Assembly: GCA_913061235.1 (NCBI GenBank)
Contig: CAJXTB010000001.1
Span: 620,001-684,000 of the forward strand
Reading direction: 5' to 3'
Source: an uncultured Pseudomonadota bacterium
GTDB taxonomy: Bacteria; Myxococcota_A; UBA796; GCA-2862545
DNA: 64,000 nucleotides
Position numbers and translations under genes: made by a program. The notes under the pieces were generated by a model. The model saw nothing but the letters and a program-made list of their open reading frames with translations. It was not told where the DNA came from and ran no database searches. This document shows positions 6,267-50,078 of the stretch, piece after piece. Each line of letters opens with the position of its first letter. Within the stretch, counting starts at the first letter, position 1.

Positions 6267-7931
6267 GTGCTGCTCTTAATGGTGTCCCTGGCTCTGTCCG
6301 CACCCCTCGACGACCTACTGATGAGCGAGCTGACCCGCGCCGAGGACGCCCTGTCCCAGCGCGAACGTACGCCGCACTACATCGCGCTACAGGTCGAAGA
6401 CCGCACCGAGTGGGACCTGCAAGCGCGCTATGGCACCGTGTTTTCCAAGCGCTCTGACCAGGCCCGCTACTTAGACGTAGACCTGCGAGTGGGCACACCT
6501 GAGCTCGACAGCACCCACGAGCTGCGTGGATTCTCCGCACTGGACGGCGACACCCGGCGCGTCACCGACCTGCCGCTCTCCAACGCCCCCGGCGTACTGC
6601 GGCATGCCGTGTGGAAGGCCATTGACCAGCAATACCGAGACGCAGACGAGCGCATTGTGCTGGTCCGGGCCAACCAGCAGGTCAAGGTCGAGGAAGAGCA
6701 AACCGCTCCCGACTTCACCGTAGTGCCACAAGCACGGGTAGACGGCATTGTGGGAGACACTCCGGTCATCGATCTGGACGCCTGGCAGCCTATTCTCGTG
6801 GAAATCAGCCAGATCATGGACGCTAGCGTGCTGGTTCGAGCCTCCTCGGTGGACCTCGGCGTCGAACATGTCATCAAGACCTTCGTGGACTCCGAAGGCA
6901 GTCGCCTAAGCCACGACTGGACCCACGGTCGCTTATCCATGACCGCCAGTACAACCGCGGAAGACGGGGATGTAGTCGGCGTATACGAAGCCATCGACGT
7001 GCATGACCCGTCATCTCTACCCGACCGCGAAGCACTGCTGCGCACCGCCCACGCCGTCGTCGAACGGGTCGAAGCACTGCACGCTGCACCCCGTGGAGAG
7101 CCGTACTCCGGTCCCGTTCTGTTGATGGGACGGGCCACCGGCGTCTTCTTCCACGAAGTGCTCGGCCACCGCGTTGAAGGACACCGGCAAAAGCGGGAAG
7201 ACGAGGGCCACACCTTCGCCGACCACGTCGGTCGCTCCGTGCTGCCTGAGTGGATTGATGTGTACGACGACCCCACCATCCCTGTCCTCGCCGGTATTGA
7301 TCTGAACGGTCACTACACCTACGACGACGAGGGTATGCGCGCGCAACGGGCCTCCATCGTCGAAAATGGCGAGTTCCAAGGTTTCTTAATGGGACGTTCC
7401 CCTATCCAAGGCTTCGAGAGCAGCAATGGCCACGGCCGGCGCAGCGTCGGAAACGCACCGGTCAGCCGCATGGGCAACACCATCATCGAAGCGAGCGAGA
7501 CCGTTCCCTTCGAGGTGCTCAAGCAAGGGCTGCGCGACCAGGCCCGTGAACAAGACTTGGAGTACGGCATCCTGGTTGAATCGATCGACGGCGGCTTCAC
7601 CTTGACCGGACGTCAGATGCCAAATGCCTTCAACGTTCGTGCAAGCGCCTCGTGGCGAGTGTTCGTGGACGGTCGCCCAGACGAGCTGGTCCGCGGCATC
7701 GACCTTGTGGGAACCCCCTTCGGAGCGTTCTCCAGCATTCTTGCTGCGGGTGAAAACCCCGAGGTCTTCAACGGCTTCTGCGGTGCTGAGAGTGGCTGGG
7801 TACCGGTGTCTGCAGTGGCCCCACCCATTCTGTTCGAGCGCCTTGAGTTCCAGCTCAAAGAGAAGGCCCAAGAGCGGCCACCGCTGCTCGCCAAGCCGCA
7901 CCCCACGACCGCCGTGGGAGGTGACTCATGA
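6267..7931 (+). CDS. Exported TldD-like zinc metalloprotease
   Basis: This 554-residue protein is a TldD/PmbA-family metallopeptidase. The zinc motif HEVLGHRVEGH (HExxxH) sits at about residue 296, and the third ligand is probably the Cys of FNGFCGAESGWVP near the C-terminus, as in TldD. Unlike cytoplasmic E. coli TldD it begins with a hydrophobic signal (MLLLMVSLALSAPL), so it should act in the periplasm. The start is GTG 6267 with GGAGG four bases upstream. It overlaps the following paralogue by four bases (ATGA); TldD works with TldE/PmbA as a heterodimer, so this pair likely does too. The substrate is unknown. Confidence 0.82.
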   Translation: MLLLMVSLALSAPLDDLLMSELTRAEDALSQRERTPHYIALQVEDRTEWDLQARYGTVFSKRSDQARYLDVDLRVGTPELDSTHELRGFSALDGDTRRVTDLPLSNAPGVLRHAVWKAIDQQYRDADERIVLVRANQQVKVEEEQTAPDFTVVPQARVDGIVGDTPVIDLDAWQPILVEISQIMDASVLVRASSVDLGVEHVIKTFVDSEGSRLSHDWTHGRLSMTASTTAEDGDVVGVYEAIDVHDPSSLPDREALLRTAHAVVERVEALHAAPRGEPYSGPVLLMGRATGVFFHEVLGHRVEGHRQKREDEGHTFADHVGRSVLPEWIDVYDDPTIPVLAGIDLNGHYTYDDEGMRAQRASIVENGEFQGFLMGRSPIQGFESSNGHGRRSVGNAPVSRMGNTIIEASETVPFEVLKQGLRDQAREQDLEYGILVESIDGGFTLTGRQMPNAFNVRASASWRVFVDGRPDELVRGIDLVGTPFGAFSSILAAGENPEVFNGFCGAESGWVPVSAVAPPILFERLEFQLKEKAQERPPLLAKPHPTTAVGGDS

Positions 7932-9652
7932 TCTGGATGCTCGCCCTGACCGCAATGGCCGCAGACCTCGACCTTCCGGGCATCACAGATGCCTTGAGTG
8001 ACGAGCTACAGCGCAACGCCTCCGAGCTGACCCTCGAAGACGCTCCCCCCATCTACTTTGCCCGGTACCGCGCCCTCTTCATGGAGCAAGTGGACGTCCG
8101 AGCCCGCTTCGGCAGCGTCATCAGCACCAGCACCGCCCCATACCGGACACTCGCTGTAGAAGTGCGGGTTGGAGACGAGAGCTTCGACAACTCAGGCTTC
8201 GGCGGCTGGCAGAACGGCTTCCGGACCGCTGGTCTCCCCGCATACGCAACGCCAGAGTCGGTGGCGACCGTGGCGTGGGGAGCGACCGACCGTGCTTATA
8301 AAGAAGCCATTGAGCAGTACGCACGCAAGGCCGCACAGGTCGAGCGAGACGACGACCATCCCGGCGACTACACGCTGGCCGAGCCGATTGCCGCAATCCT
8401 AGAAGGTCCTGCCATCGGCGCCTCCGAGCCTATGGTCCTCATGGCAGAGCAGATCTCCGCGGCCATGGCCGTAGACCCTGGCAACGCTGTGTTGGAGCTG
8501 GGTGAGGTGTATGTCGGCCACGAGACAGGCTCGGAGGTCTTGGTCGACACCGCAGGTACCCGGCTCATCCAGCCACGCTCTGAGCTCACCGTTCGCGCTG
8601 TCTTTCAGGTCCGCGCTCCAGATGGGCAGTTCCTCACAGACGAGCGTCTATGGACCGTTCAGGGCCCCGAACAGCTACCGCCGCTGGCCGAGATGGTCTC
8701 GTCGGCCTCGCTGATGGCCTCGTCCCTCATCGACATCGCCAACAATGCGGAGACCCTCGACGAAGAGTACGTCGGCCCGGTCCTCTTTGAAGGCGAAGCG
8801 GCGCTCGATCTGCTGCGCTACGTGCTCGTGCCACAGCTCGAAGGCACGCCGGATGACGTTCCCTTCGACAGCTTCTTCGGCGACCTCGGAAGCCGTGCCT
8901 CTGGAGCCGCACGCCTATCCAGACGCGTCCTCCCCTTGGGCTGGACCGTAGACGACGACCCGCTGCGCCTGCCCGATCACCCCGGCAGCTTCCGATACGA
9001 TGCCGAGGGCACACTGGCCCAAGCCGTCACTTTGGTCGACGACGGAATCGTTCAGGACCTTCTGATGAGCCGCACGCCCCGGCCCGACATTCGCGAGACC
9101 AACGGTCACGCTCGCGGTGGTTTCGGAGAACGTGCACGTGGGCGAACGGTGGCCGTCGCGGTCACCCCAGCACGCAACGACTCCGCACGAAAAGTCCGAA
9201 AGAAAGCCCGACGTCTAGCCAATGCATACGACCGCGACTGGATCTTCGTGGTCACTTCGCTGCAGGAACCCTCAGCCATGGCAGTTGGGGACTACTCCCG
9301 CTATCCGAACTTTGACCCAAAACAACCCTCACTACCGCCACCCGTAGCGCTCATCCGCCGCTACCAAGACGGTCGCGAAGAGGTCGTTCGCGGCGCCGTG
9401 TTCACCGGGGTCCAGCGCTTCATCCTGCGCGATATCGCTGCTGCCGGAATGCAACGAAGCACCAGCTACCTCATCGACGGCACGGGAGACCCAGCGGGCT
9501 TCACCCCAACTGGTGGCCTACCCACGTGGATGTCCGGCCCTGACGTGCTCATTGGTGAGATGGAATTGGTCCCCACTTCAGGTGACCCACGCTCGCTGCC
9601 TATCGTTCCGGCCCCTGCCGTTACGGTCAACGACTTGACGACAGCTCCATAA
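7928..9652 (+). CDS. Exported TldE/PmbA-like partner without zinc motif
   Basis: This 574-residue protein is a paralogue of the upstream TldD-like gene, starting inside its stop codon. It has a signal peptide (MIWMLALTAMAADLDL) and the family's C-terminal layout (LLMSRTPRPD, NGHARGGFGERARG), but where the partner has HExxxH it reads DLLRYVLVPQLEG, so it cannot bind zinc the same way. It therefore resembles the non-catalytic TldE/PmbA half of the heterodimer. The region around 450-480 carries KKARRLANAYDRDW, as seen in other long family members. Function is inferred from the pairing. Confidence 0.75.
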   Translation: MIWMLALTAMAADLDLPGITDALSDELQRNASELTLEDAPPIYFARYRALFMEQVDVRARFGSVISTSTAPYRTLAVEVRVGDESFDNSGFGGWQNGFRTAGLPAYATPESVATVAWGATDRAYKEAIEQYARKAAQVERDDDHPGDYTLAEPIAAILEGPAIGASEPMVLMAEQISAAMAVDPGNAVLELGEVYVGHETGSEVLVDTAGTRLIQPRSELTVRAVFQVRAPDGQFLTDERLWTVQGPEQLPPLAEMVSSASLMASSLIDIANNAETLDEEYVGPVLFEGEAALDLLRYVLVPQLEGTPDDVPFDSFFGDLGSRASGAARLSRRVLPLGWTVDDDPLRLPDHPGSFRYDAEGTLAQAVTLVDDGIVQDLLMSRTPRPDIRETNGHARGGFGERARGRTVAVAVTPARNDSARKVRKKARRLANAYDRDWIFVVTSLQEPSAMAVGDYSRYPNFDPKQPSLPPPVALIRRYQDGREEVVRGAVFTGVQRFILRDIAAAGMQRSTSYLIDGTGDPAGFTPTGGLPTWMSGPDVLIGEMELVPTSGDPRSLPIVPAPAVTVNDLTTAP

Positions 9653-14047: not shown

Positions 14048-14911
14048 ATGCAAGTCCTCGAATGGTTCAGCGGACTCGGTGGGTGTACCGCCGCTCTTCG
14101 CCCTACAGACAGTGTCGTCCAGGCCATCGACCAGGACGAAATGGCTCATCGTACCTACACTCAGTGGTGGTCTCACCCGTGCATTCGCCGCAACGTCGCG
14201 CACATCAAGCCCGCCGCCGTTCCGCAGGCCGACCTGTGGTGGATGAGCCCGCCGTGTCAGCCCTACAGCATTCGAGGCCGCCAGCAGGACCTCGCTGACC
14301 GAAGAAGTGGCGCCTATCTTCGGCTCTTGGAGCTGATGGATGCCCACAAGCCGCAGCACATCGCCCTTGAGAACGTGCCATGGTTTGAGGGGTCGCAGGG
14401 CCACCAACGCCTCGCGACATGGCTCGAAGCGAATGGCTACGCCGTGTGGTCGGGCTGCCTGTCCCCGGCTGACCTTGGCATCCCCATGGTCCGCCGTCGC
14501 TTCTTCTTGGTCGCGTCGCAGACACACACCCCATGCGCACCCGCTCATCAACCGCTGGCCAAGCGTCTGCCGGCGTTCCTGTCAGCCTCTGCTCCACAGG
14601 ACACCGACATTGATCCCGACGTGCTCGCTCGCTTCACCGACGCCTTTCACACCGTAGACGCGGACGACAAAGACGCCATCGCCGCTTGTTTCACCGGCGC
14701 CTACGCACGATCTCCCGTGTACGCAGGAAGCTACCTGCGGCAGAACGGGAAGCTGCGCCTGTTCTCACCGCACGAAATTCTAGCCCTCATGGGCTTCCCA
14801 CCACAGTGCCGCATGCCAAGCGACCTGCCGCGACGAAAGGCCTACAAGCTGGTTGGAAACAGCGTGTCCGTCGACTGTGTCCGCGCCGTTCTCGCACCGC
14901 TTTACCTCTAA
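14048..14911 (+). CDS. Dnmt2-type cytosine-5 methyltransferase (probable tRNA C38 methylase)
   Basis: All C5-cytosine methyltransferase motifs are present in 287 residues: I (WFSGLGG), IV with the catalytic Cys (MSPPCQPYS), VI (LENVPWFEG), VIII (RRRFFLVAS), IX/X (EILALMGFPP, YKLVGNSVS). Several features match Dnmt2/TRDMT1 rather than restriction-type DNA enzymes: the block GRQQDLADRRSGAYL after motif IV, the short target-recognition part, and the hallmark CFT sequence (AACFTGAYARSPVYAGSYL). Dnmt2 enzymes methylate tRNA at C38; a homologue is known in Geobacter. There is no restriction enzyme beside it, which also argues against a restriction role. It is divergent from the M16 pair. Confidence 0.82.
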   Translation: MQVLEWFSGLGGCTAALRPTDSVVQAIDQDEMAHRTYTQWWSHPCIRRNVAHIKPAAVPQADLWWMSPPCQPYSIRGRQQDLADRRSGAYLRLLELMDAHKPQHIALENVPWFEGSQGHQRLATWLEANGYAVWSGCLSPADLGIPMVRRRFFLVASQTHTPCAPAHQPLAKRLPAFLSASAPQDTDIDPDVLARFTDAFHTVDADDKDAIAACFTGAYARSPVYAGSYLRQNGKLRLFSPHEILALMGFPPQCRMPSDLPRRKAYKLVGNSVSVDCVRAVLAPLYL

Positions 14912-14915
14912 AACC

Positions 14916-14943
14916 AAAAACGCCACCCCGGCTGGAGTGGCGT
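14916..14943 (-). terminator. Rho-independent terminator of the sigma-factor gene
   Basis: The arms ACGCCAC (14920-14926) and GTGGCGT (14937-14943) form a hairpin, and on the minus strand it is followed directly by TTTTT (14920-14916). It lies 22 bases past the sigma-gene stop and just after the convergent methyltransferase stop. Confidence 0.72.
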
Positions 14944-17182: not shown

Positions 17183-17887
17183 ATGGCTATCTTCGTTGCC
17201 GTCTTGGCAGGCATCCTGACCACTGTTGCTGGCATGGGCGGCGGTACACTCCTGGTCCTATTCCTGGTTCTGACCTCGCACTCACCGGTCGAAGCACTGG
17301 CTGCGACCTCAGTCGGGCTGCTCGTTGGCAATACCCACCGATTGTGGCTGTTCCGTGAGCACTTGAACCGCGAGGTTGCGGGTCCCTTCACACTCGGAGC
17401 CCTACCCGCAGCAGCGGTGATGTCGCTGGTCGCCGTGAGCCTTCCAGACACGGTTCTTCGTCTAGGAATCGCTGCAGTTGCCTTGGTGGGCGTTGCGAGT
17501 GCCGCGTTCGGGCTGCGCTTGAAACGACGGGCTGGCACAGCCATCACTACCGGAGCGCTCGTAGGAAGCGTGAGCGCGACTACAGGGGGCGGTGGCATCA
17601 TCGCCGGCCCGTTCTTCCTGACCAGCGGCTTGACCGGTCCCGCCTACATTGCGACGGGTGCTTCTGGCGCCATTGCCGTACACATCGGACGACTGGCAGG
17701 GTACGGAAGTGGCGGAATCCTAGACCGCGATGTCTGGCTGTGGGGCGTCGCCTTCGCTGTCGCCATTCCGCTCGGAAACCTGGTTGGTAAGTGGCTGCGC
17801 GAGCGCATTCCCAAACGAGCAAATCGCCCCATTGAGCTAGGCACAGCCGCAGGTCTCGCCGCCTTGGCTATCGCGAGTGCGCTGTAA
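17183..17887 (+). CDS. TauE/SafE-family membrane transporter
   Basis: The 234-residue product is nearly all hydrophobic, with about seven or eight helices and the family's duplicated Gly-rich turns: AGMGGGTLLVLFLVLTS in the first half and SATTGGGGIIAGPF in the second. TauE/SafE proteins export sulfite, sulfoacetate or other organosulfur anions. I chose ATG 17183, five bases after GGAG; a TTG at 17129 would add a hydrophilic stretch that does not fit. It overlaps the convergent gene's end by 20 bp. Control by the divergent LysR gene is likely. Confidence 0.82.
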   Translation: MAIFVAVLAGILTTVAGMGGGTLLVLFLVLTSHSPVEALAATSVGLLVGNTHRLWLFREHLNREVAGPFTLGALPAAAVMSLVAVSLPDTVLRLGIAAVALVGVASAAFGLRLKRRAGTAITTGALVGSVSATTGGGGIIAGPFFLTSGLTGPAYIATGASGAIAVHIGRLAGYGSGGILDRDVWLWGVAFAVAIPLGNLVGKWLRERIPKRANRPIELGTAAGLAALAIASAL

Positions 17888-19508
17888 ACTCCCACGCAGC
17901 GGGAGAACACAAGCCAAGCTCGGCGAGGCCCAGTCCTGCGTCAGACGACAGTGCCACGCCGGCCTCAATGTCGCTGGCCGTCGCCAGATCAATCTCCGCC
18001 ATGACCCACTCGTCCCCCGCTCGTCCCATGACCAGGGCATGGGGCTCCGCCGCAGGAACCGGCTGGCCGCTCAACAAGGCATCGCGCAGCTCGGTGGGCT
18101 CCCACTCGAACCGCAACAGGCGAGCCCCCTCGGCCAAGGTGTACGGCCCAGTTCCCACTCCCAACACCCGATTGCGGGCCACATCACTCGGTGGTGGGTA
18201 CGCCATCGCCGCTTCGAACCGGGCAACATCGGACGCGACTCGGGGCCCGTGCTCGGTCAGCCAGACAGCGAACCGCTCACCAATCCCACTGCGTGAGTTC
18301 ACGTCGGCGATAGCGAACTCAGCGACCATGCCAGTCAGGTTCTCTCCAGCCCAAGCCGCAGTCGCCGGAAGAGCGGACCGGACGCCAGCCTCCAGCTGAT
18401 GGAGATCAGAGCCAAGGCCCTCAACTAGCGGGTACCCGACTGCAAACATCTCACCCGCAGCCGGCACGTAGTAGGCCTCTTCCAGCTCGCGGTAGCCGTC
18501 TACAATCGCCTGAATGTCTTCGCCATCAGCCAGCCGATTCACAAGTGCCAACAGGCTGTCTGCGCACTCCCCATCTGTTTCCGAGTGCACCAGAAGCAAC
18601 CGTGCGCCAAGGTCCTGCCGCACCCATCGGTCCCGGCCAGCATCTGCCGACGGTGCCAGAGGCCGCACGCTCTCACCAACCAACAGGCCGTTTAAGACCT
18701 CAACAACGCGCGCTTCAAGCTCGTCCAGGTCCGTCGACCACCCGCCTGCCTTCACAGCAAACCGGTCGTTCCACAGTTGAAAACTCGCGCTCTGCAGTCG
18801 CGCGCCGTGCGCCCGCGCGTATGCGAGTCCGTCCGAGCACAAGTCGAGCGTGCCGTGGACATTCGGAACGGGTCGCCCCTCACTGCGAGACCTGCGAATG
18901 GCGTCCAGCTCACGTTCGACAAACTCCAGCCCCGCCTGAATACGGGAAAGCCCACGCGGATCCTGGTTCAATGGGCGAGCAATTCGTTCGCACGGCCCAC
19001 ACAGTGTCCGAAACAGCGCTCCTCCCCCCTGGTGGTCCGGGCATCGTTCCAGGAACGCTTCATCGAAGAAGTACCAGAGGGCTACCGGCAGCAATTCAGC
19101 GAGGCGTGCAGCCGTCGCATGAAACAACGGAGTCGCGTCGGGCTGCCACGCAAAGCCAACCAAGGCATGACACAGCTCATGCGTTCCCCACTTTGCTCTG
19201 TGTGATGGATGAAAGCTCGCAATCGCCAACTCGTGTTGAAAGGACTGGTACTTGCGTTCCGGGAGCACGCCGCCACGCCACGCCACTGGGTCGTCATCTG
19301 ACCACTCTTCTGGAAGCTCCAAGTGGTGTCGATGCTCAAAGTGAAACGCAAAAAGCCCATCACGAGCCGCAAGTGTTGCCACCCCCATCGCGGCAGGAGA
19401 TCGGGTGTACTCGCCAAGCGGAGCACCATCCGGCAGTGGCACTTTCGGCGGATGCGCCCCGACAGAAAGTAGCCATTCAACACAACGATTGGGATCAGGA
19501 AAGTTCAT
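17868..19508 (-). CDS. Unrecognised protein with HELCH zinc-protease-like motif
   Basis: I do not recognise this 546-residue protein. It has a possible metallopeptidase motif, GTHELCHALVGF at about residue 109 (HExxH), followed by LFHATAARLAELLP and FDEAFLERC; a CGPC pair lies at about residue 170. No signal peptide is visible, so it is likely cytosolic. The second half is acidic and Ala-rich with no clear motif. HExxH alone is not proof of a protease. It stands alone, convergent with the transporter and divergent from the repeat lipoprotein. Confidence 0.72.
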   Translation of the reverse strand: MNFPDPNRCVEWLLSVGAHPPKVPLPDGAPLGEYTRSPAAMGVATLAARDGLFAFHFEHRHHLELPEEWSDDDPVAWRGGVLPERKYQSFQHELAIASFHPSHRAKWGTHELCHALVGFAWQPDATPLFHATAARLAELLPVALWYFFDEAFLERCPDHQGGGALFRTLCGPCERIARPLNQDPRGLSRIQAGLEFVERELDAIRRSRSEGRPVPNVHGTLDLCSDGLAYARAHGARLQSASFQLWNDRFAVKAGGWSTDLDELEARVVEVLNGLLVGESVRPLAPSADAGRDRWVRQDLGARLLLVHSETDGECADSLLALVNRLADGEDIQAIVDGYRELEEAYYVPAAGEMFAVGYPLVEGLGSDLHQLEAGVRSALPATAAWAGENLTGMVAEFAIADVNSRSGIGERFAVWLTEHGPRVASDVARFEAAMAYPPPSDVARNRVLGVGTGPYTLAEGARLLRFEWEPTELRDALLSGQPVPAAEPHALVMGRAGDEWVMAEIDLATASDIEAGVALSSDAGLGLAELGLCSPAAWEFTAHSR

Positions 19509-19997
19509 GCCGTGTAGCTATTCCAACCCTGTGTGCTTGGCCCACGCCGGGGTGTCTGTCCCGTCACCTGCCAGTGAGTACACCCACCACAGTCAACCAC
19601 CACACAGCGTGCAATGACTGTACCAAAGCGCCGAACAACCACAATAAACCATATTAAAAAGCCGACAGTTCGAACATTCACCATTTCATCGCCCTCCGTC
19701 TCGGTCGATGGAAGGACGCGCCCCTAAACCCCTACCCGCAAGACGTTTCACGACAAATGCTGCGCCTATCCTTTGACGGACGCGCAATGCGCCGCGAACG
19801 CACAGAACAACCGGTGCAAACTCATAGAACTCGCTCACCCGAAGCGCCGCATTCCAATCCGTCCGCAGGGGCCGTTCAAGGGGGTGTCACAGATTCCGAC
19901 ACGTCGAACCTGCAAGAGTAACGACAGAATTCTGTTGGAATCGTGGCACATCAAGCACCAACCCTTGTAAGGTGAGCCCGCTTAGGAGGATATGGGG
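19509..19997. other. 489-bp intergenic region before the repeat lipoprotein
   Basis: I see no gene or RNA here. A short AT-rich patch at about 19636-19660 (aataaaccatattaaaaag) is the best place for a promoter but I cannot assign -35/-10 boxes with confidence. The region ends with the strong ribosome-binding site AGGAGG (19984-19989) of the next gene. Confidence 0.4.
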
Positions 19998-22900
19998 ATG
20001 CGTACAGGACTGCTCTTTGGAGCTATGCTTCTTATGATGTCAGGTTGCAAGCGGGAAATCTGCGGCAACGGCGTCGATGATGACAACAACGGTGACTTAG
20101 ATTGCGCCGACATCGCGTGCAACTGTCTCGAAGACTGTTTCAACGGCGAAGATGACGATGCCGACGGCTTCGTTGACTGCGACGACAACAGCTGCGAGGC
20201 CGAGTGCGTCGAAGTCTGTGACGATGATGCAGACAACGATGGCGACGGTCTTGCCGACTGTTCGGACCCGGACTGCTTCGGAGATTCGTGCGACGAAATT
20301 TGCGACGATGACGAAGACAACGACGGTGACGGCGATGCCGACTGCGATGACGCAGACTGCCTCGGCGTTCCAGACGCCGGCTGTGGTGAGACCTGCGGCA
20401 ACGGCGTCGATGACGACGGCGACGGTCTTGCCGACTGTGCAGACGAAGAGTGCTTCGGCGACGCTGACAACTGCGCCACCGAAGAGCCTGCCCTGTGCGC
20501 CGACGGTGAAGACAATGACGCCGACGGCCTCACTGACTGCCTCGACGAAGACTGCTTCGGCGTTGAAGGAGCCTGTGACTCCGAAACCGTCGATACCTGC
20601 TTCGACGGCCAAGACAACGACGCAGACGGCCTCGAAGGCTGCCTCGACGACGATTGCTTCGGACTTGCCGATCCAACGGGTGACACGGACGGTTGTACAA
20701 CCGAAACCGTCGATACCTGCTTCGACGGCCAAGACAACGACGATGACGGCCTTGAAGGCTGCCTCGACTCCGACTGCTTCGGACTTGCCGATCCATCGGG
20801 TGACACGGACGGTTGTACAATCGAGACCGTCGACACCTGCTTCGACGGCCAAGACAACGACGGCGACAACCTCGAAGGTTGCTTGGACCCAGACTGCTTC
20901 GGTCTTGACGATCCAAGCACTGTCGATCCAGACGGCTGTACCAGCGAAAACGCCCAAGACGGCGCGTGTTCAGACGGTCAGAACAACGACAACGACGACT
21001 TCGACGACTGTGACGACCCCGATTGTTTCGGCGCTGAAGGCGAATGCGACACAGCCGAGCTGAACTGCGCCGACGGTGGCGACAACGATGGTGACGGACC
21101 GGCTGACTGTGCAGACAGCGACTGTGCCCCTCCCATCGGTGACGACACTCACCCGTGTGCTGGTGCCGAGACCATCTGTGATGACGGCCTCGACAACAAC
21201 TCCAACGGTCTCACCGACTGTGCCGACCCTGCATGTTCGGGAGCCGCTGGCGCCTGTGACACCTCGCAAGCCGAAGCCGACAACTGCTTCGACGGCATCG
21301 ACAACGACGCCAACACCTTCGTCGACTGCCTCGACAGCATCTGCTTCGGTCAGGCCAACCCTGATACCGACGGCGCTGTCTCTTGTGACGCAGAGAACAC
21401 TGTTGACCAGTGTACTGACGGACAAGACAACGACGACGACGGAAGCGTTGACTGTGCTGACCCCGACTGCTTCGGCCTGATCGGCGCGTGTAGCTCGGAA
21501 GACCTCTGCGACGACGACCAAGACAACGACGACGACGGTCTGGTCGACTGCCTCGATGACGAGTGCTTTGGCGACGGTTCCGGAACCGGTGACTGTGCCA
21601 CGGAAGGCGCTGGCCTCTGCGGCGACGGCTTCGACAACGACGGCGACGGCGACCTCGACTGCGCCGACGCCGACTGCTTCGGCATCGCCCCATGTGATGG
21701 CAGCGAGTCCATCTGTGACGACGGCGAAGACAACGACAACAACGGTGTTGCCGACTGTGCCGACTCCGCTTGCTTCGGCCCCGACAATGGTTGTGGCGAT
21801 GAGCTCGACGGAAGCTGCACCGATGGTCTAGACAACGACCTTGACGGTAACGACGACTGCGCCGACTCCGATTGCTTCGGTGAAGTTGGTTGTGAGACCG
21901 AGGCCATCTGTGGCGACGGTCAAGACAACGACGACGACGGCCTCTTCGACTGCTTCGACGACGACTGCTTCGGCACCGCCGACTGTGACGCAGAAGTCGG
22001 TGAGCTCTGCGCCGATGGCCTGGACAACGACGACGACGGCAACGCGGACTGCGATGACGACGAATGTACCGAGTCTGGCTACTGTGGCGAGTTCAGCTGC
22101 ACCGATGGTGAGAGCAACGAAGCTGACGACGCTATCGACTTCGACGACGCTATCGACTGCTCGGATGACGACTGTGACGGTGTGCTCGATGACAGTGGCG
22201 TTGCCATCTGCTTCGAGTCCTGTGACGACGACCGCGACAATGACGGCAACGGCCTCACCGACTGTGAAGACCCCGAGTGTGCCGACAACCAAGTCTGCGT
22301 TGAGTCCGACTGTGCCGACAACATCGACAGCGACGGCGACGGCCTGACCGACTGTGAAGACGACGACTGCTGGGGCCTCGGCTGCCACAACGCTACCGCG
22401 ACCGGTATCGTGTCGACCCTCACTGACGGCACCGCAGCCCTGACCCAGAAGTACGAAGTGTTCGACTGGAAGTTCGACGAAGATGCGTCCTACTTCACGG
22501 GCACCAGCGTTGGCGGCGGCTCAAGCTTCTCCGACTGCTTCAACGTCAACAACCCCACCGTCGACAACAACCCGTTTGACCGCGCCAACCCGTTCACGAC
22601 GTCCACCACGTTCGTCAGCACAAGCGCCTTCACCGAAACGGGCGAAGCTCCAAACGGAACTCCGCAGTCGCTGTTCACGGTTCAACGAATCGACAGCTTC
22701 TCGAGCGTCCGCCTAGATGCAGTCGCCGGTACCGTACAAGTTGACGCCGAGATTGCCGACGGCAGTCGTGTCAGCCGTACCTGTGACTGGAACTTCGACA
22801 GCGCAGTGTTCCGCGGTCCTCGTGACGGACGCCTGGAGCTTGTTGGAACCCGTGCCGGATTTACCCTCGGCGGCGCCGAGATCGGCGCAGACGGCCCGGT

Positions 22901-23228
22901 CACACCGGACGAAGCCTGTCAGCTGGAAGGCTCAAGCTTCCTGCCGACCGTGCTCTTCCACGCCGACGAAGACGGCGGCGCTCCAAGCCAGACCCGCTTC
23001 CGCGGTGACGGCGTGCTACGTGTAGACAACTTCACGGGTGCGGAACGTTACGGTCTGTCTGCTAACGACCCGGCCTTCAACACGTACGGCGCCTTCGAGC
23101 AAGTTGCCCAAGGCCGCCCAGGAAGCGTCGAGACATGCCTCAAGTACTACACACACTACACAAGCACCTACGGCTGGAATGCCAATGGTCTGTACGGCAA
23201 CTCGCTGCAGGTGTACGGAGCGCCTTAG
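19998..23228 (+). CDS. Giant lipoprotein with 23 Cys/Asp metal-binding-type repeats
   Basis: The product has about 1,076 residues: a lipoprotein signal ([20 protein letters not shown]), 23 tandem repeats of about 30-40 residues that follow C-x-D-G-x-D-N-D-x-D-G-x-x-D-C-x-D-x-D-C-F-G, and a C-terminal domain of about 280 residues (from [10 protein letters not shown]) without repeats. The Asp-rich loops resemble EF-hand or thrombospondin-type calcium sites and the MopE-like motif seen in Myxococcota; each repeat holds three or four Cys. It is probably a stiff, calcium-stabilised surface stalk carrying the C-terminal domain. I chose ATG 19998 (eight bases after AGGAGG) over 19992. A small secreted protein follows 21 bp later. 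Confidence 0.82.
20581..20940 (+). repeat. Three near-identical 120-bp tandem copies inside the repeat lipoprotein
   Basis: Bases 20581-20700, 20701-20820 and 20821-20940 align with a 120-bp period; copies one and two differ at only a few positions. Each encodes one 40-residue [13 protein letters not shown] repeat, so this is a recent in-frame duplication within an older, more diverged array. Confidence 0.9.
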
Positions 23229-41406: not shown

Positions 41407-44073
41407 TCACTCATTCGGGTCGAGCGGGTCCGTTCCGGCAAGGTGCTCATTGAAGTCGCTGACCCCGTCGCTGTCCGTGTCTGCGAGGCCGGGATTGGTG
41501 CCGCGCAGATGTTCGTCGTAGTCGTCGACTAAGTCCAAGTCTGAGTCCGTGGAATCCGGTTCGTATCCCCATGAAAACCGTTCAAACAGGTCTGAGAGTC
41601 CGTCACCGTCGGTATCGATGCACTGCGGGTTGCTGCCACCGCCAGTTTCCTGCCGGTTTGACAGACCATCCCCGTCATCATCATCCAGTGGGTCACCCAC
41701 GACTGTAGGCTCCGGGTTGCATGGGGAGGTCAAGACCCGCAGAGCGAAGCGGTTGACGTAAGAAAACTGCTGAAAGCGGTAGAACCAATGCGTAGCGGGC
41801 CGCGCCACAACGACCTGTGTGCTCTGGGTTGACCACACAACTGTCACGGTCAGACCGTCGGGGTCTGCGCTGTCGACACAGTCGAGAATGTGGCCATCAA
41901 CCGAACACGTCAGCGGTAAGGCGCGCCAGTAGCTTCTACCGCTCAACCAGGCATGCACACCACTGTTGTCTTGCACGACATGCACGCCGGTCGCTTGGCC
42001 GAACCAGTTCTCGGCGCCGTAGATCTCCAGCTCAAACAATCGGTGCTGTGCAATGCCGTCGCTCGCCTGAATATGCAGGTGTAGCGGTTCATCCGAAAAC
42101 ACAGGCATCGTTCCAGCAGCCAGCGTATCAATGAAGTCGCCTCGCCCGCCCGGCTCCGTCACACGCAGGGTCGGGTCCGTTCCAAGAGCGACCTCAACAT
42201 GGTCTGCTAGACCGTCGGCATCTGAGTCCCCGAGCATCGGATGGGTGCCCGCTGCCCACTCTTCAGCGATGGCCATGGAGTCATCATCCCCTCGCAGGCG
42301 TGGAGCCTGTGTACTCGAGTGGCTGAATGCCTCGTAAAGGTCGGGCAGGCCGTCGCCGTCTGTGTCGGACCAAAGCGGAGACAGGCCAAGGCGGTCTTCC
42401 CATCCGTCGCTGATTCCGTCTCCATCCGTGTCTGGGCACATTGGGTCGATCCCGAGTGACAACTCGTCGCTGTCCGCGAGCCCATCGGAGTCGCGGTCGC
42501 CTCCGTTGGCGGGCGCATTCGCCGAGACACAATGCCTAGGTCGAAAGTGCTGCACCGGGAGGCTATGCCAGGCGCCATTCCACTGATAGATGGCGCCGAT
42601 CCATCCGCCGCTCGGAGAGTTGACCAAGTAGTACACTGCCGATGCGTAGCCAGTGCGAAACTCGCCGCACCACCACGTCTGGGCAACAAGGTAGCAGTAG
42701 ATGGGCGTCACGGAATTGCCCTTGAATACGTGACCAACAACTTCTTCGTCGGTCCGATACAGCACAATAGCTTCGACGTCCGTACCTGCTCGCGCGAGTA
42801 GACCTACGTCAATCAGAGACAGTCCGTAGGGAATATCAAGTAGGCTTGTCTCTTCACCGGTCTCAAAGCCGTCCAGTAGGCCGTTTCCGTCGGTGTCGGG
42901 CTGGGTTGGGTCGAGTCCTTGGGCAACCTCGTCACCATCGTACAGCCAGTCACCATCGGTATCGGCTAGCTGAGCGTCGGTACCCAATGCAAGCTCTTCC
43001 CGCTCTGACAGGCCATCACCATCCGCGTCTGGTGTACCAGCCACAGCACCAATCAGTAGCTCTCCCAAGTCTGCAATCCCGTCGTCGTCGGTATCCCAAA
43101 GCACAGGATCAAATCCAAGTTGTACTTCGGCAAAGTCCGGCACTCCATCGCGGTCGGTGTCCATTCGCAGCGGGTCGGTTCCGTCTCGCTGCTCGTCCGC
43201 AGTCGACAGGCCATCAAAGTCCGGGTCGGGTCCCCAGCCCGCCCGTCCCGCAGCGTTGCGCGGAAGCCAGACACCTACGCCCTCAAGATTGGTCTCCACA
43301 AGGTACGACGGAGTGCTGATACCACCGCCATAATACTCGCGATCCCTCCAATGCAACCGCAGTACGCCGTCTTCAACATCGAACCGAACGACATCTCGGA
43401 CGTCCGCCAATGAGCTCGCGGTGAGCTGAGGACCACACCGCACAGCACAGTCCCACCGAAGATTGTCCCCGGCAGCCACAAGCAGCTCAACGCTGTGCGT
43501 GAGGGGAGCGTGACGAAACGCTGCTCCAATCCACGGCTCTTCCCACCACTGGCCTGGAATTTGCGCAAGTGCAGGGTCAATCCAGACAACGGTGGGTTGG
43601 GCTGAAGGACTCAGGGACGACGCTGCTACATGCTCAGCCCCAATCAGGTCCCACCCATCGCGAATACCGTCACCATCGGAGTCCTGGACGAGTGGGTTGT
43701 AGCCATAGCGCTCTTCAATGTGGTCCCACAGACCGTCGCCGTCCGAGTCGATGAGGTCGCCATTCCAAGGGTCAGTGTCGAACTCGAGGTCGGTGTCTGG
43801 GTCGGTGTCTGGGTCGGTGTCTGGGTCGGTGTCCAGGTCGGTGTCTGGGTCGGTGTCTGGGTCGGTATCTGGGTCGGTATCTGGGTCGGTATCTGGGTCG
43901 GTGTCCAGGTCGGTGTCCAGGTCGGTGTTCAGGTCGGTGTCCGAGTCCGAGTCCGAGCCAATCTCAATGTCAGGCTCAACCTGCGTACCCAGCCCAGTAT
44001 CGCTGTCAGACGGACCTGGGACACCACACGCACTGCCCAACGCAACTACCCAGATCCAAGAACGACAGCCCAT
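41407..44073 (-). CDS. TSP3-repeat lipoprotein, largest member (888 residues)
   Basis: The product starts with a lipoprotein signal (MGCRSWIWVVALGSACG), then a stalk of 13 DTDP/DTDL units, then blocks of thrombospondin-type-3 calcium repeats (DSDGDGLWDHIEERYGYNP type) alternating with beta-rich domains. Domain A lies at about residues 160-275 and ends in WGPDPDFDGLS. A Cys-containing domain B lies at about 665-785, with LTCSVDGHILDC. ATG 44073 follows GGAGG; an upstream frame to 44187 adds no signal. It is divergent from the rest of the family. The expected role is a calcium-stiffened surface protein; ligand unknown. Confidence 0.8.
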   Translation of the reverse strand: MGCRSWIWVVALGSACGVPGPSDSDTGLGTQVEPDIEIGSDSDSDTDLNTDLDTDLDTDPDTDPDTDPDTDPDTDPDTDLDTDPDTDPDTDPDTDLEFDTDPWNGDLIDSDGDGLWDHIEERYGYNPLVQDSDGDGIRDGWDLIGAEHVAASSLSPSAQPTVVWIDPALAQIPGQWWEEPWIGAAFRHAPLTHSVELLVAAGDNLRWDCAVRCGPQLTASSLADVRDVVRFDVEDGVLRLHWRDREYYGGGISTPSYLVETNLEGVGVWLPRNAAGRAGWGPDPDFDGLSTADEQRDGTDPLRMDTDRDGVPDFAEVQLGFDPVLWDTDDDGIADLGELLIGAVAGTPDADGDGLSEREELALGTDAQLADTDGDWLYDGDEVAQGLDPTQPDTDGNGLLDGFETGEETSLLDIPYGLSLIDVGLLARAGTDVEAIVLYRTDEEVVGHVFKGNSVTPIYCYLVAQTWWCGEFRTGYASAVYYLVNSPSGGWIGAIYQWNGAWHSLPVQHFRPRHCVSANAPANGGDRDSDGLADSDELSLGIDPMCPDTDGDGISDGWEDRLGLSPLWSDTDGDGLPDLYEAFSHSSTQAPRLRGDDDSMAIAEEWAAGTHPMLGDSDADGLADHVEVALGTDPTLRVTEPGGRGDFIDTLAAGTMPVFSDEPLHLHIQASDGIAQHRLFELEIYGAENWFGQATGVHVVQDNSGVHAWLSGRSYWRALPLTCSVDGHILDCVDSADPDGLTVTVVWSTQSTQVVVARPATHWFYRFQQFSYVNRFALRVLTSPCNPEPTVVGDPLDDDDGDGLSNRQETGGGSNPQCIDTDGDGLSDLFERFSWGYEPDSTDSDLDLVDDYDEHLRGTNPGLADTDSDGVSDFNEHLAGTDPLDPNE
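43788..43941 (-). repeat. 12-bp tandem repeat encoding the DTDP stalk
   Basis: About 13 copies of a 12-bp unit (GGTCGGTGTCTG and one- or two-base variants, plus-strand reading) encode the DTDP/DTDL stalk. The unit is a multiple of three, so copy-number change alters stalk length without breaking the frame. Confidence 0.9.
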
Positions 44074-44222
44074 CTCATCCTCCACTACCCTTGAGTGTCT
44101 CACCCCAGGAACTCCATCAAGTCGATAGTACATCCGGCGGACCGTATGTCCGATGTATAGACCTACTGAAGGACTAGGCCGACCCAAACACCTAGTGAGT
44201 CCGCGCCCTCAAAGGAGCTTCC

Positions 44223-47573: not shown

Positions 47574-50078
47574 ATGAGATTCAGTCGCATCACCCCCATT
47601 CTCCTCCTGCTCGCAGCGTGCGATGACAATGGCGAGGGCCCGAGCGACACCAACGTCGACCCACTGCCCCCCATCATCAACCGTCCCCTTCCCGAGTTCG
47701 GCACACTGACCATTGGCAGCGATGTACGCATTCTACCGCCCGATGCCCGTCCGTTCCCCGGCATAGACACCGACGGCGACGGCCTGTACGACGCCTTCGA
47801 GCTTGAACAAGGCCTTGACCCGCTCAACCCCGACACAGACGGCGACGGCATCCACGACCACTGGGACCTGCTGGGCTCCGAGCACGCACTGCAGACCCAG
47901 ACGGATGACGGCTTTGCCTGGTTCGACCCCTCCGCAACCGAGCTACTCCCTCCTGATATTGCCGCCTCAACCGTCTACAATCCGCCAATCTCGGGCATCC
48001 ACATTCAGCGAACCGAGCCGAGCCACGTCGTCCTGTTTGGCATCAGCCAGTACCGTCCCCTTCACGCCCCATGCATTGCACCGCCCAACGCACCTGCGTC
48101 ATGCAGTGCACGCTACACAGGCAATGAAATGTCCAACCCGACCAGCGTCCGCTTGGATGTTGAGGCCAGCCCTTACGGCCAGCAGTTGATGTGGGAGATG
48201 ACCACCAATGTGCGCATAGGCAGTATGTCTCCCGACTGGATCTACGAAGACGACCGCGTGTTCCAGCCGCAGACAGCCCCCATCCTAGGCGTTCCCGCGC
48301 GCAATTGGGGCCCCGACCCAGACGGAGACGGTCTCAATGCGTTCGGCGAGTTCTTCTACGGGACCGACCCCCTGCTGTGGGACACCGACGGAGACGGCGT
48401 TCCAGACCGCACTGAGATCTGGCAGCGAAAGAACCCACTGCTCGCAGACACAGACGAAGACGGCATCTTGGACATGGACGAGCACCTAGCGGACACCAAC
48501 GCATCCGACGGCGACCCCGACTACGACACGCTGTTGCTCGCCGAAGAGCAGCGCCTCGGCACCAACCCCGACCGCGCGGACACCGACAACGACCGCTTGC
48601 CCGACAACCTCGAGGCACTGCACAACACAGATCCCCTCGACTACGACAGCAACGACGATGGCGTAAGAGACGGCCAGTGGCTTCTGCAAGCGCCGCTGCC
48701 CCTCGACCTAGACCCTGAGTGGCAGTCGTTCAGCCTCGTCGCGTCTCCGGCTGAGCAGTACCGATTCCTAAATGTGGTTGTGGCCGATACCCCCGCTGGC
48801 ATTCGCGCATTCCTGTACGGCATCGACTACTTCGGTAACAATGGGTCCCAACTGCACCATACCCAGCTCGAGTGCGTCGCACACAACAACATCTTGCTGT
48901 GCCAGGACTTCAATGCGCACAGCAACAACTCGCGGGTCTCACAGAGCATCCGAATCATCCGAACCGCGACCGGTTTCGACGTTCTCGACAACTCCGGCAT
49001 CGGCAATGTTGCCTTCGCTCCTGACCTGTGTCCCACGAGCGGCATGGCGCCCAATGACGCAGACGGCGACCGACTGACAGACGCCGAAGAAGCCATGCTT
49101 GGAACCAGCCCGACCTGTGCGGACACAGACGGCGACGGCCTCACCGACTTTGTCGAGTCGCATCACTTCACCGACCCACTCGTCGCGGACACCGACCAAG
49201 ACGGCCTGTCCGACTTCATCGAAGACATCGTCATCTACGGCTACCCTGGCGCAACCACCAACGACGCTGATGGGGACGGCATCTTAGACGGTCAAGACGA
49301 CGCCGACGACGATGGACTCTCCAACCTCGAAGAGCTCGCCCTCGGCACGCGTATCGACCGCCCCGACACCGACCGAGACGGCTTGCTCGACGGAGCCGAG
49401 ATGGCGCTTGGACTCAGCCCCTTCCTTGTAGATACAGACGGCGACGGCTTCGCAGACTCCGTCGACAGTTGGCAGGCCCCGCTCCCACTGCCCGCACCGG
49501 GCATCTACCCATTCCTCGCTCACCAATACGCCGCCCGTTCCTCCGTCAACGTGTCCGTCCTAGAGGTCTTCCAGCCCGTCCATACCGAAGGTTTCGGCTA
49601 CCTCTTCCAAGTCACCAACAACGGCGTGACCGCCTTCCCACTCACCGAAGACAGCACCCCGTGGCCCTGCGAACCGGTCGACTCGGACTGGCTGTGCTCG
49701 GCAAACAACCCCGAAAACGTTGACCTACGCCTGCGCTTCACCGCGTCCGGCCTGGTCCTAGGACAGCGCTACACCCAGCCTGTCTTCGACATGCGCAGTC
49801 GAACGACCAACGTCCAAGCACACTCGTTTCCCGTCCCACTCTTCGGCGGCTGTCCCAACCCCAACAGTCCGTATGAAGACTACGACGGCGTAGACCGAGC
49901 CGCCGAGCAAGATGCAGGCACCCGCAGAGACTGCGCAGACACAGACGGCGACGGACTGCCAGACGGATTCGAGCTGGCCGACTGGAGCCCGTTCGACCCC
50001 CTACAAGCCGACACAAGCGGCAACGGGACGTCGGACGCCGAAGCCTTCATCCTCGCCGCAGAGAGTCGCCAAGAATGA
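47574..50078 (+). CDS. TSP3-repeat lipoprotein, two-domain member (834 residues)
   Basis: Signal MRFSRITPILLLLAACDDNG is followed by a Pro-rich linker, the opening TSP3 pair, domain A (GFAWFDPSATELLPPD..., with ISGIHIQRTEPSHVVLFG), a long run of TSP3 repeats, domain B with its Cys pair (LECVAHNNILLC) and a second domain-B-like segment at about 640-760 (WPCEPVDSDWLC), ending in more TSP3 repeats. It is the fullest example of the A/B architecture on this strand and lacks a DT stalk. Confidence 0.8.
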   Translation: MRFSRITPILLLLAACDDNGEGPSDTNVDPLPPIINRPLPEFGTLTIGSDVRILPPDARPFPGIDTDGDGLYDAFELEQGLDPLNPDTDGDGIHDHWDLLGSEHALQTQTDDGFAWFDPSATELLPPDIAASTVYNPPISGIHIQRTEPSHVVLFGISQYRPLHAPCIAPPNAPASCSARYTGNEMSNPTSVRLDVEASPYGQQLMWEMTTNVRIGSMSPDWIYEDDRVFQPQTAPILGVPARNWGPDPDGDGLNAFGEFFYGTDPLLWDTDGDGVPDRTEIWQRKNPLLADTDEDGILDMDEHLADTNASDGDPDYDTLLLAEEQRLGTNPDRADTDNDRLPDNLEALHNTDPLDYDSNDDGVRDGQWLLQAPLPLDLDPEWQSFSLVASPAEQYRFLNVVVADTPAGIRAFLYGIDYFGNNGSQLHHTQLECVAHNNILLCQDFNAHSNNSRVSQSIRIIRTATGFDVLDNSGIGNVAFAPDLCPTSGMAPNDADGDRLTDAEEAMLGTSPTCADTDGDGLTDFVESHHFTDPLVADTDQDGLSDFIEDIVIYGYPGATTNDADGDGILDGQDDADDDGLSNLEELALGTRIDRPDTDRDGLLDGAEMALGLSPFLVDTDGDGFADSVDSWQAPLPLPAPGIYPFLAHQYAARSSVNVSVLEVFQPVHTEGFGYLFQVTNNGVTAFPLTEDSTPWPCEPVDSDWLCSANNPENVDLRLRFTASGLVLGQRYTQPVFDMRSRTTNVQAHSFPVPLFGGCPNPNSPYEDYDGVDRAAEQDAGTRRDCADTDGDGLPDGFELADWSPFDPLQADTSGNGTSDAEAFILAAESRQE

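Follow-up and report, generated by a model that had tools for sequence, protein, structure and literature searches.

Within the window, the 64,000-nucleotide stretch of DNA that was analysed as a whole (G000:C1:620001-684000, from a genome of 7.18 Mb that is 99% complete), we identified a gene encoding a true bacterial Dnmt2, one more member of an established family. Dnmt2 is best known from eukaryotes, where it methylates one tRNA cytosine. The gene (14048..14911, + strand) is assigned to the Dnmt2-family tRNA (cytosine-38-C5)-methyltransferases by search, tree and structure. It begins with ATG and runs for 287 codons without an internal stop. Most genomes of its taxonomic family, and some from elsewhere in the order, encode full-length orthologues (~280-300 aa, 39-52% identity), and because those of its family keep the catalytic residues invariant, the open reading frame is a real gene. 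We consider it highly probable that the product is a stand-alone, SAM-dependent enzyme that methylates C5 of cytosine 38 in the tRNA anticodon loop. Its family membership, its intact catalytic apparatus, the Dnmt2 fold of its model and its solitary context are direct results, as is the occurrence in the genome of tRNAs that have the features needed.

The catalytic set (PCQ Cys, ENV Glu and RxR) is complete. Motif IV (SPPCQP, residues 67-72; 14246..14263, +) includes Cys70, which aligns with the catalytic Cys of human DNMT2; a Cys occupies this position in 68/68 Dnmt2-clade proteins of the motif alignment. The same alignment places motif VI (ENV, with E108; 14369..14377, +), motif VIII (RxR, with R149 and R151; 14492..14500, +) and motif X (GNS; 14855..14863, +). 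C70, E108, R149 and R151 are invariant in relatives. The original prediction had inferred a Dnmt2-type enzyme from a CFT hallmark and a block following motif IV, and both are present. The block, GRQQDLADRRSG, lies at residues 77-88 (D81, D84, R86; 14276..14311, +), just where it had been placed; D84 and R86 are each found in 68/68 Dnmt2-clade proteins (motif alignment), and eukaryotic Dnmt2s have an equivalent block at the same site, the human version being GRQGDMTDSRTN. The hallmark C214-F215-T216 (CFT, residues 214-216; 14687-14695, +) opens an extended Dnmt2 block, CFT-x2-Y-x7-GS (C214, F215, T216, Y219, G227, S228; 14687..14731, +), so that Y219 and G227-S228 accompany it.

F215, Y219 and G227 occur in 68/68 Dnmt2-clade proteins (a motif alignment separate from the others), as against F in 0/30 and Y in 3/30 DNA methylases at the same columns. 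The CFT triplet itself is somewhat degenerate among bacterial Dnmt2s (C214 in 55/64 and T216 in 52/64 bacterial members of the clade, each in 4/4 eukaryotic ones), but F215, Y219 and G227 are not. CFI replaces CFT in Holophagaceae/Geothrix (seven loci), and one Myxococcota family (f41; three loci) has FGSSYG at the CFT block. A search for CFT only would overlook the bacterial Dnmt2s of the Holophagaceae and f41.

Pfam PF00145, NCBIfam TIGR00675 and PADLOC MTase_II all match the window protein, and its fold is common to HhaI. These matches would suit an orphan DNA cytosine-C5 methylase, one acting alone to mark the chromosome or to guard against restriction, a reading that we judge improbable: the three models are superfamily-wide and cannot tell Dnmt2 from DNA methylases, and Dnmt2 entries score higher in every specific comparison. 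In a phmmer search of PDB sequences, the top matches were all Dnmt2 (112.7, 112.2, 95.0, 94.3 and 82.9 bits, with human DNMT2 at 112.7, EhMeth at 95.0, Spodoptera DNMT2 at 94.3 and Pmt1 at 82.9), and the DNA methylases HhaI (61.4 bits) and HaeIII (35.9 bits) fell below them. A profile of the relatives run against solved structures gave 225-194 for Dnmt2, 119 for HhaI and about 50 or less for Dnmt1. Scores against the family profile leave a clean gap between the Dnmt2-like minimum (272 bits) and the DNA methylase maximum (145 bits), which counts as supporting evidence only, the profile having been trained on family members. At 287 aa the protein is also closer to the Dnmt2-like median (297 aa) than to that of the sampled DNA methylases (363 aa), whose greater length is a further point against the orphan DNA methylase. 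Residual DNA activity has been reported for some Dnmt2s, a point against the preferred reading.

Phylogenetic analysis, the check that the original prediction had proposed, placed the window protein in the Dnmt2 clade and not among the DNA C5-methylases. The tree (IQ-TREE, 98 proteins) comprises the window protein and 63 other bacterial Dnmt2-like proteins, four eukaryotic Dnmt2s and 30 DNA methylases, namely HhaI and 29 from genomes or contigs examined here, several of which also carry Dnmt2; Dnmt1, Dnmt3 and DNMT6 are absent from it. The 64 bacterial Dnmt2-like proteins and the four eukaryotic Dnmt2s are split from the 30 DNA C5-methylases with support of 100/100, which again argues against an orphan DNA methylase. 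Like M.HhaI and other bacterial DNA C5-methylases, the window protein has the fold and the conserved catalytic core motifs; those enzymes differ in the CFT column, in their greater length and in their position across this split.

The predicted fold of the window protein is likewise that of a Dnmt2. The AlphaFold model (pLDDT 93.9, pTM 0.92) was compared with solved structures, and Foldseek ranked every Dnmt2 structure above all DNA methylases (E 6e-28 to 6e-24, versus 3e-21 for HhaI). VIA-align gave Z 35.0-31.4 for Dnmt2 structures and Z 30.1 for HhaI, so Foldseek sets the Dnmt2 structures clearly apart from HhaI, but by Z the lowest-ranked of them leads it by only ~1.3. The best structural match is 3qv2 (Z 35.0, 1.8 A over 284 residues). 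The top matches are eukaryotic Dnmt2/TRDMT1 enzymes (human 1g55 and 9hgm, S. pombe Pmt1 6fdf, Spodoptera 4h0n and Entamoeba EhMeth 3qv2), with which the window protein shares the CFT block and every catalytic residue. It differs from them in sequence (about 27-32% identity over the structural alignment) and is shorter (287 aa against chains of 327-348 aa). Sequence, structure and motif tests thus agree with the tree in supporting the Dnmt2-type identity originally proposed, and the tree, motif and structure comparisons reject the reading as a DNA methylase.

The gene stands alone in its neighborhood. Upstream and divergent from it are two M16-peptidase genes; downstream and convergent are a sigma-70-type factor gene and then a LysR regulator. 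Neighbor annotation and PADLOC found no restriction or defence partner near the methyltransferase gene, so the earlier statement that no restriction gene lies nearby was correct, and the lack of such a partner speaks against the orphan DNA methylase. A PADLOC match to MzaA on the sigma factor covers one end of the model only, a part that a sigma factor would match. A type II restriction-modification methylase is disfavoured by the placement in the tree and by the fact that no linked endonuclease or defence genes were found. Across 77 related loci no neighbor gene is conserved family-wide; the largest recurring neighbors represent local synteny within the Holophagaceae, besides which there are a few small lineage-level groups. 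We therefore dropped conserved neighbors as a clue to function. Such a solitary setting would be expected of a housekeeping-type modification gene.

Between the convergent methyltransferase and sigma-factor genes lies a GC-rich hairpin (14920..14943, no strand assigned; z -1.6), which is weak evidence for what is possibly a shared transcription end; a promoter and terminator scan found nothing, including no terminator at 14920..14943. Elsewhere the window encodes a tandem pair of TldD/PmbA-type metallopeptidase genes (6267-9652, +), two long open reading frames of 546 and 1078 aa without a Pfam match (17868-19508, -, and 19992-23228, +) and two large proteins with bacterial TSP3 repeats (41407-44187, -, and 47574-50078, +).

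From its family membership and the suitable tRNAs of its genome, we infer that the window protein methylates tRNA at C38. In the predicted reaction, a DNA-methylase-type core would use Cys70 as the nucleophile, assisted by Glu108 and the motif VIII arginines, and the methyl group would pass from SAM to C5 of the anticodon-loop cytosine 38 of the chosen tRNA. The modification may serve decoding or tRNA stability, either as housekeeping or under stress.

We examined 44 distinct tRNA genes of the genome for C38 and for recognition determinants. C38 is carried by tRNA-Ala(CGC), tRNA-Asp(GUC), tRNA-Glu(CUC), two of the four tRNA-Met and three tRNA-Val. Human DNMT2 follows the rule C32 U33 (G/I)34 N35 (C/U)36 A37 C38 (PMC12780215, citing Huang 2021 and Shanmugam 2014), and it also requires U11-A24 and a variable loop of the right size (PMC12780215). 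Among the tRNAs of this genome only tRNA-Asp(GUC) satisfies the whole rule (C32 U33 G34 U35 C36 A37 C38, U11-A24 and a variable loop of 5 nt). tRNA-Glu(CUC) has C38 and U11-A24 and so resembles the Geobacter substrate, and tRNA-Glu(UUC) has U38, so that only the CUC isoacceptor of tRNA-Glu would be methylatable. The most likely substrates are tRNA-Asp(GUC) and/or tRNA-Glu(CUC). In all genomes of the order that were read (31 loci), the tRNA-Glu(UUC) loop is UUUUCAU (U32, U38) and the tRNA-Glu(CUC) loop is kept as CUCUCAC; the loop of Geobacter tRNA-Glu(UUC) is CUUUCAC.

According to two papers, the Geobacter Dnmt2 methylates tRNA-Glu (PMC4860778, PMC6850298). In one Geobacter genome tRNA-Glu(UUC) has C38 and U11-A24 and tRNA-Asp has C11-G24, so the known substrate is the one that the 11-24 determinant would pick out. 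A close known system is GsDnmt2 of Geobacter sulfurreducens (tRNA-Glu C38; Shanmugam et al. 2014, by way of PMC6850298 and PMC4860778): it is bacterial and of the same family with the same motifs, and both genomes have a C38 tRNA-Glu with U11-A24. The two differ in that C38 is here found on tRNA-Glu(CUC) only, not on tRNA-Glu(UUC), and in that the tRNA-Asp of the window's genome has the U11-A24 pair that is missing from tRNA-Asp of the one Geobacter genome read. Among relatives with and without the gene, C38, U11-A24 and the variable loops of tRNA-Asp and tRNA-Glu(CUC) show no difference, and since these features are the same where the gene is absent, the tRNA sequences permit an Asp or Glu substrate and neither support nor refute it. 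Co-variation of the tRNAs is for the same reason uninformative about the substrate.

Dnmt2 specificity varies by organism among Asp, Glu, Gly and Val (PMC4860778, PMC5372726), and bacterial and eukaryotic members differ between motif VIII and the CFT block, so a Dnmt2-family RNA methyltransferase with a target other than C38 of tRNA-Asp or tRNA-Glu has also to be weighed. tRNA-Val(GAC), whose loop is CUGACAC in this genome, would be one such target and another RNA a second. We think this unlikely, because tRNA-Val(GAC) is without U11-A24 and two gene-carrying genomes have A38 in tRNA-Val(UAC); tRNA-Val was rejected as a substrate on this variation of position 38 among carriers and on the missing U11-A24. 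For the preferred Asp substrate, queuosine is a further consideration. The genome encodes two Tgt-family (queuosine) proteins, both above the curated cut-off (G000:C2:313628-314689 and G000:C12:65645-66718); one of the two may have another role, and given two Tgt-type genes, queuosine at position 34 of tRNA-Asp is possible. Queuosine 34 of tRNA-Asp stimulates several Dnmt2s (PMC5372726, PMC6850298).

The original prediction had called bacterial Dnmt2 homologues rare, a view that is out of date. One peptide pattern, run against 84,980 species genomes, matched 195 stretches, 183 of which are relatives; this is a lower bound on carriers, with 80 retained and the other 103 confirmed by tblastn only. 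The retained 80 include Acidobacteriota (Holophagaceae/Geothrix and Thermoanaerobaculia), Pirellulaceae and other Planctomycetota, Myxococcota, Sulfurospirillum, Geobacter, Desulfuromonas and Syntrophales, with Desulfobacterota among the phyla represented, and more. Within the window's phylum, the distribution is patchy (an orthologue in 45/379 genomes). The Syntrophales MAG SKW28 (L114:6001-6885 and downstream) encodes a Dnmt2 with a C-terminal fusion to cpYpsA (circularly permuted YpsA, SLOG) in one 468-aa frame (Pfam E 4.6e-52). A mobile or viral origin of the window gene was rejected, as the best full-length phage or plasmid matches are just 25-27% identical and the single viral contig found groups with DNA methylases in the tree.

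In 2011 bacterial Dnmt2 homologues were stated to occur only in Geobacter and to be perhaps derived from eukaryotes (PMC3227630). A recent acquisition from a eukaryote, as then proposed for Geobacter (PMC3227630), would concern the origin of the window gene and not its activity, and would fit the kinship to eukaryotic Dnmt2 and the patchy occurrence in the phylum. We regard it as extremely improbable, because the window protein sits within a Myxococcota group (99/91), well away from the compact eukaryotic clade, because the bacterial family is much more diverse than that clade, and because its closest relatives come from genomes of the same family (about 52% identity). Geobacteraceae Dnmt2s share a clade with the window protein, on a separate sub-branch. 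The eukaryotic Dnmt2s group tightly in one clade (100/99) next to bacterial lineages that branch early. Constraining all bacterial sequences to one group is only 3.6 log units worse (AU test, p-AU 0.40), so that eukaryotic Dnmt2 as sister to all bacterial members stays compatible with the tree. On balance we lean towards Dnmt2 being an old and diverse bacterial tRNA-methyltransferase family from which eukaryotes obtained their single Dnmt2, a transfer in the opposite direction to that proposed for Geobacter.

The accessible text of a 2025 survey of eukaryotic DNMT origins refers to bacterial donors in general and names no bacterial Dnmt2 clade (PMC12344493). In the literature searched, outside which subscription papers lie, we found no description of the wider bacterial Dnmt2 family, and the bacterial branch of the window gene has apparently not been described there for Dnmt2. 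That literature pictures bacterial Dnmt2 through Geobacter alone, and general family models label members only as DNA cytosine methyltransferase; a broad bacterial family would change this picture. It bears on the source of eukaryotic Dnmt2 and implies tRNA m5C38 in numerous bacteria in which, apparently, nobody has looked for it. The cultured carriers Geothrix, Lujinxingia and Geobacter offer material for asking what m5C38 does.
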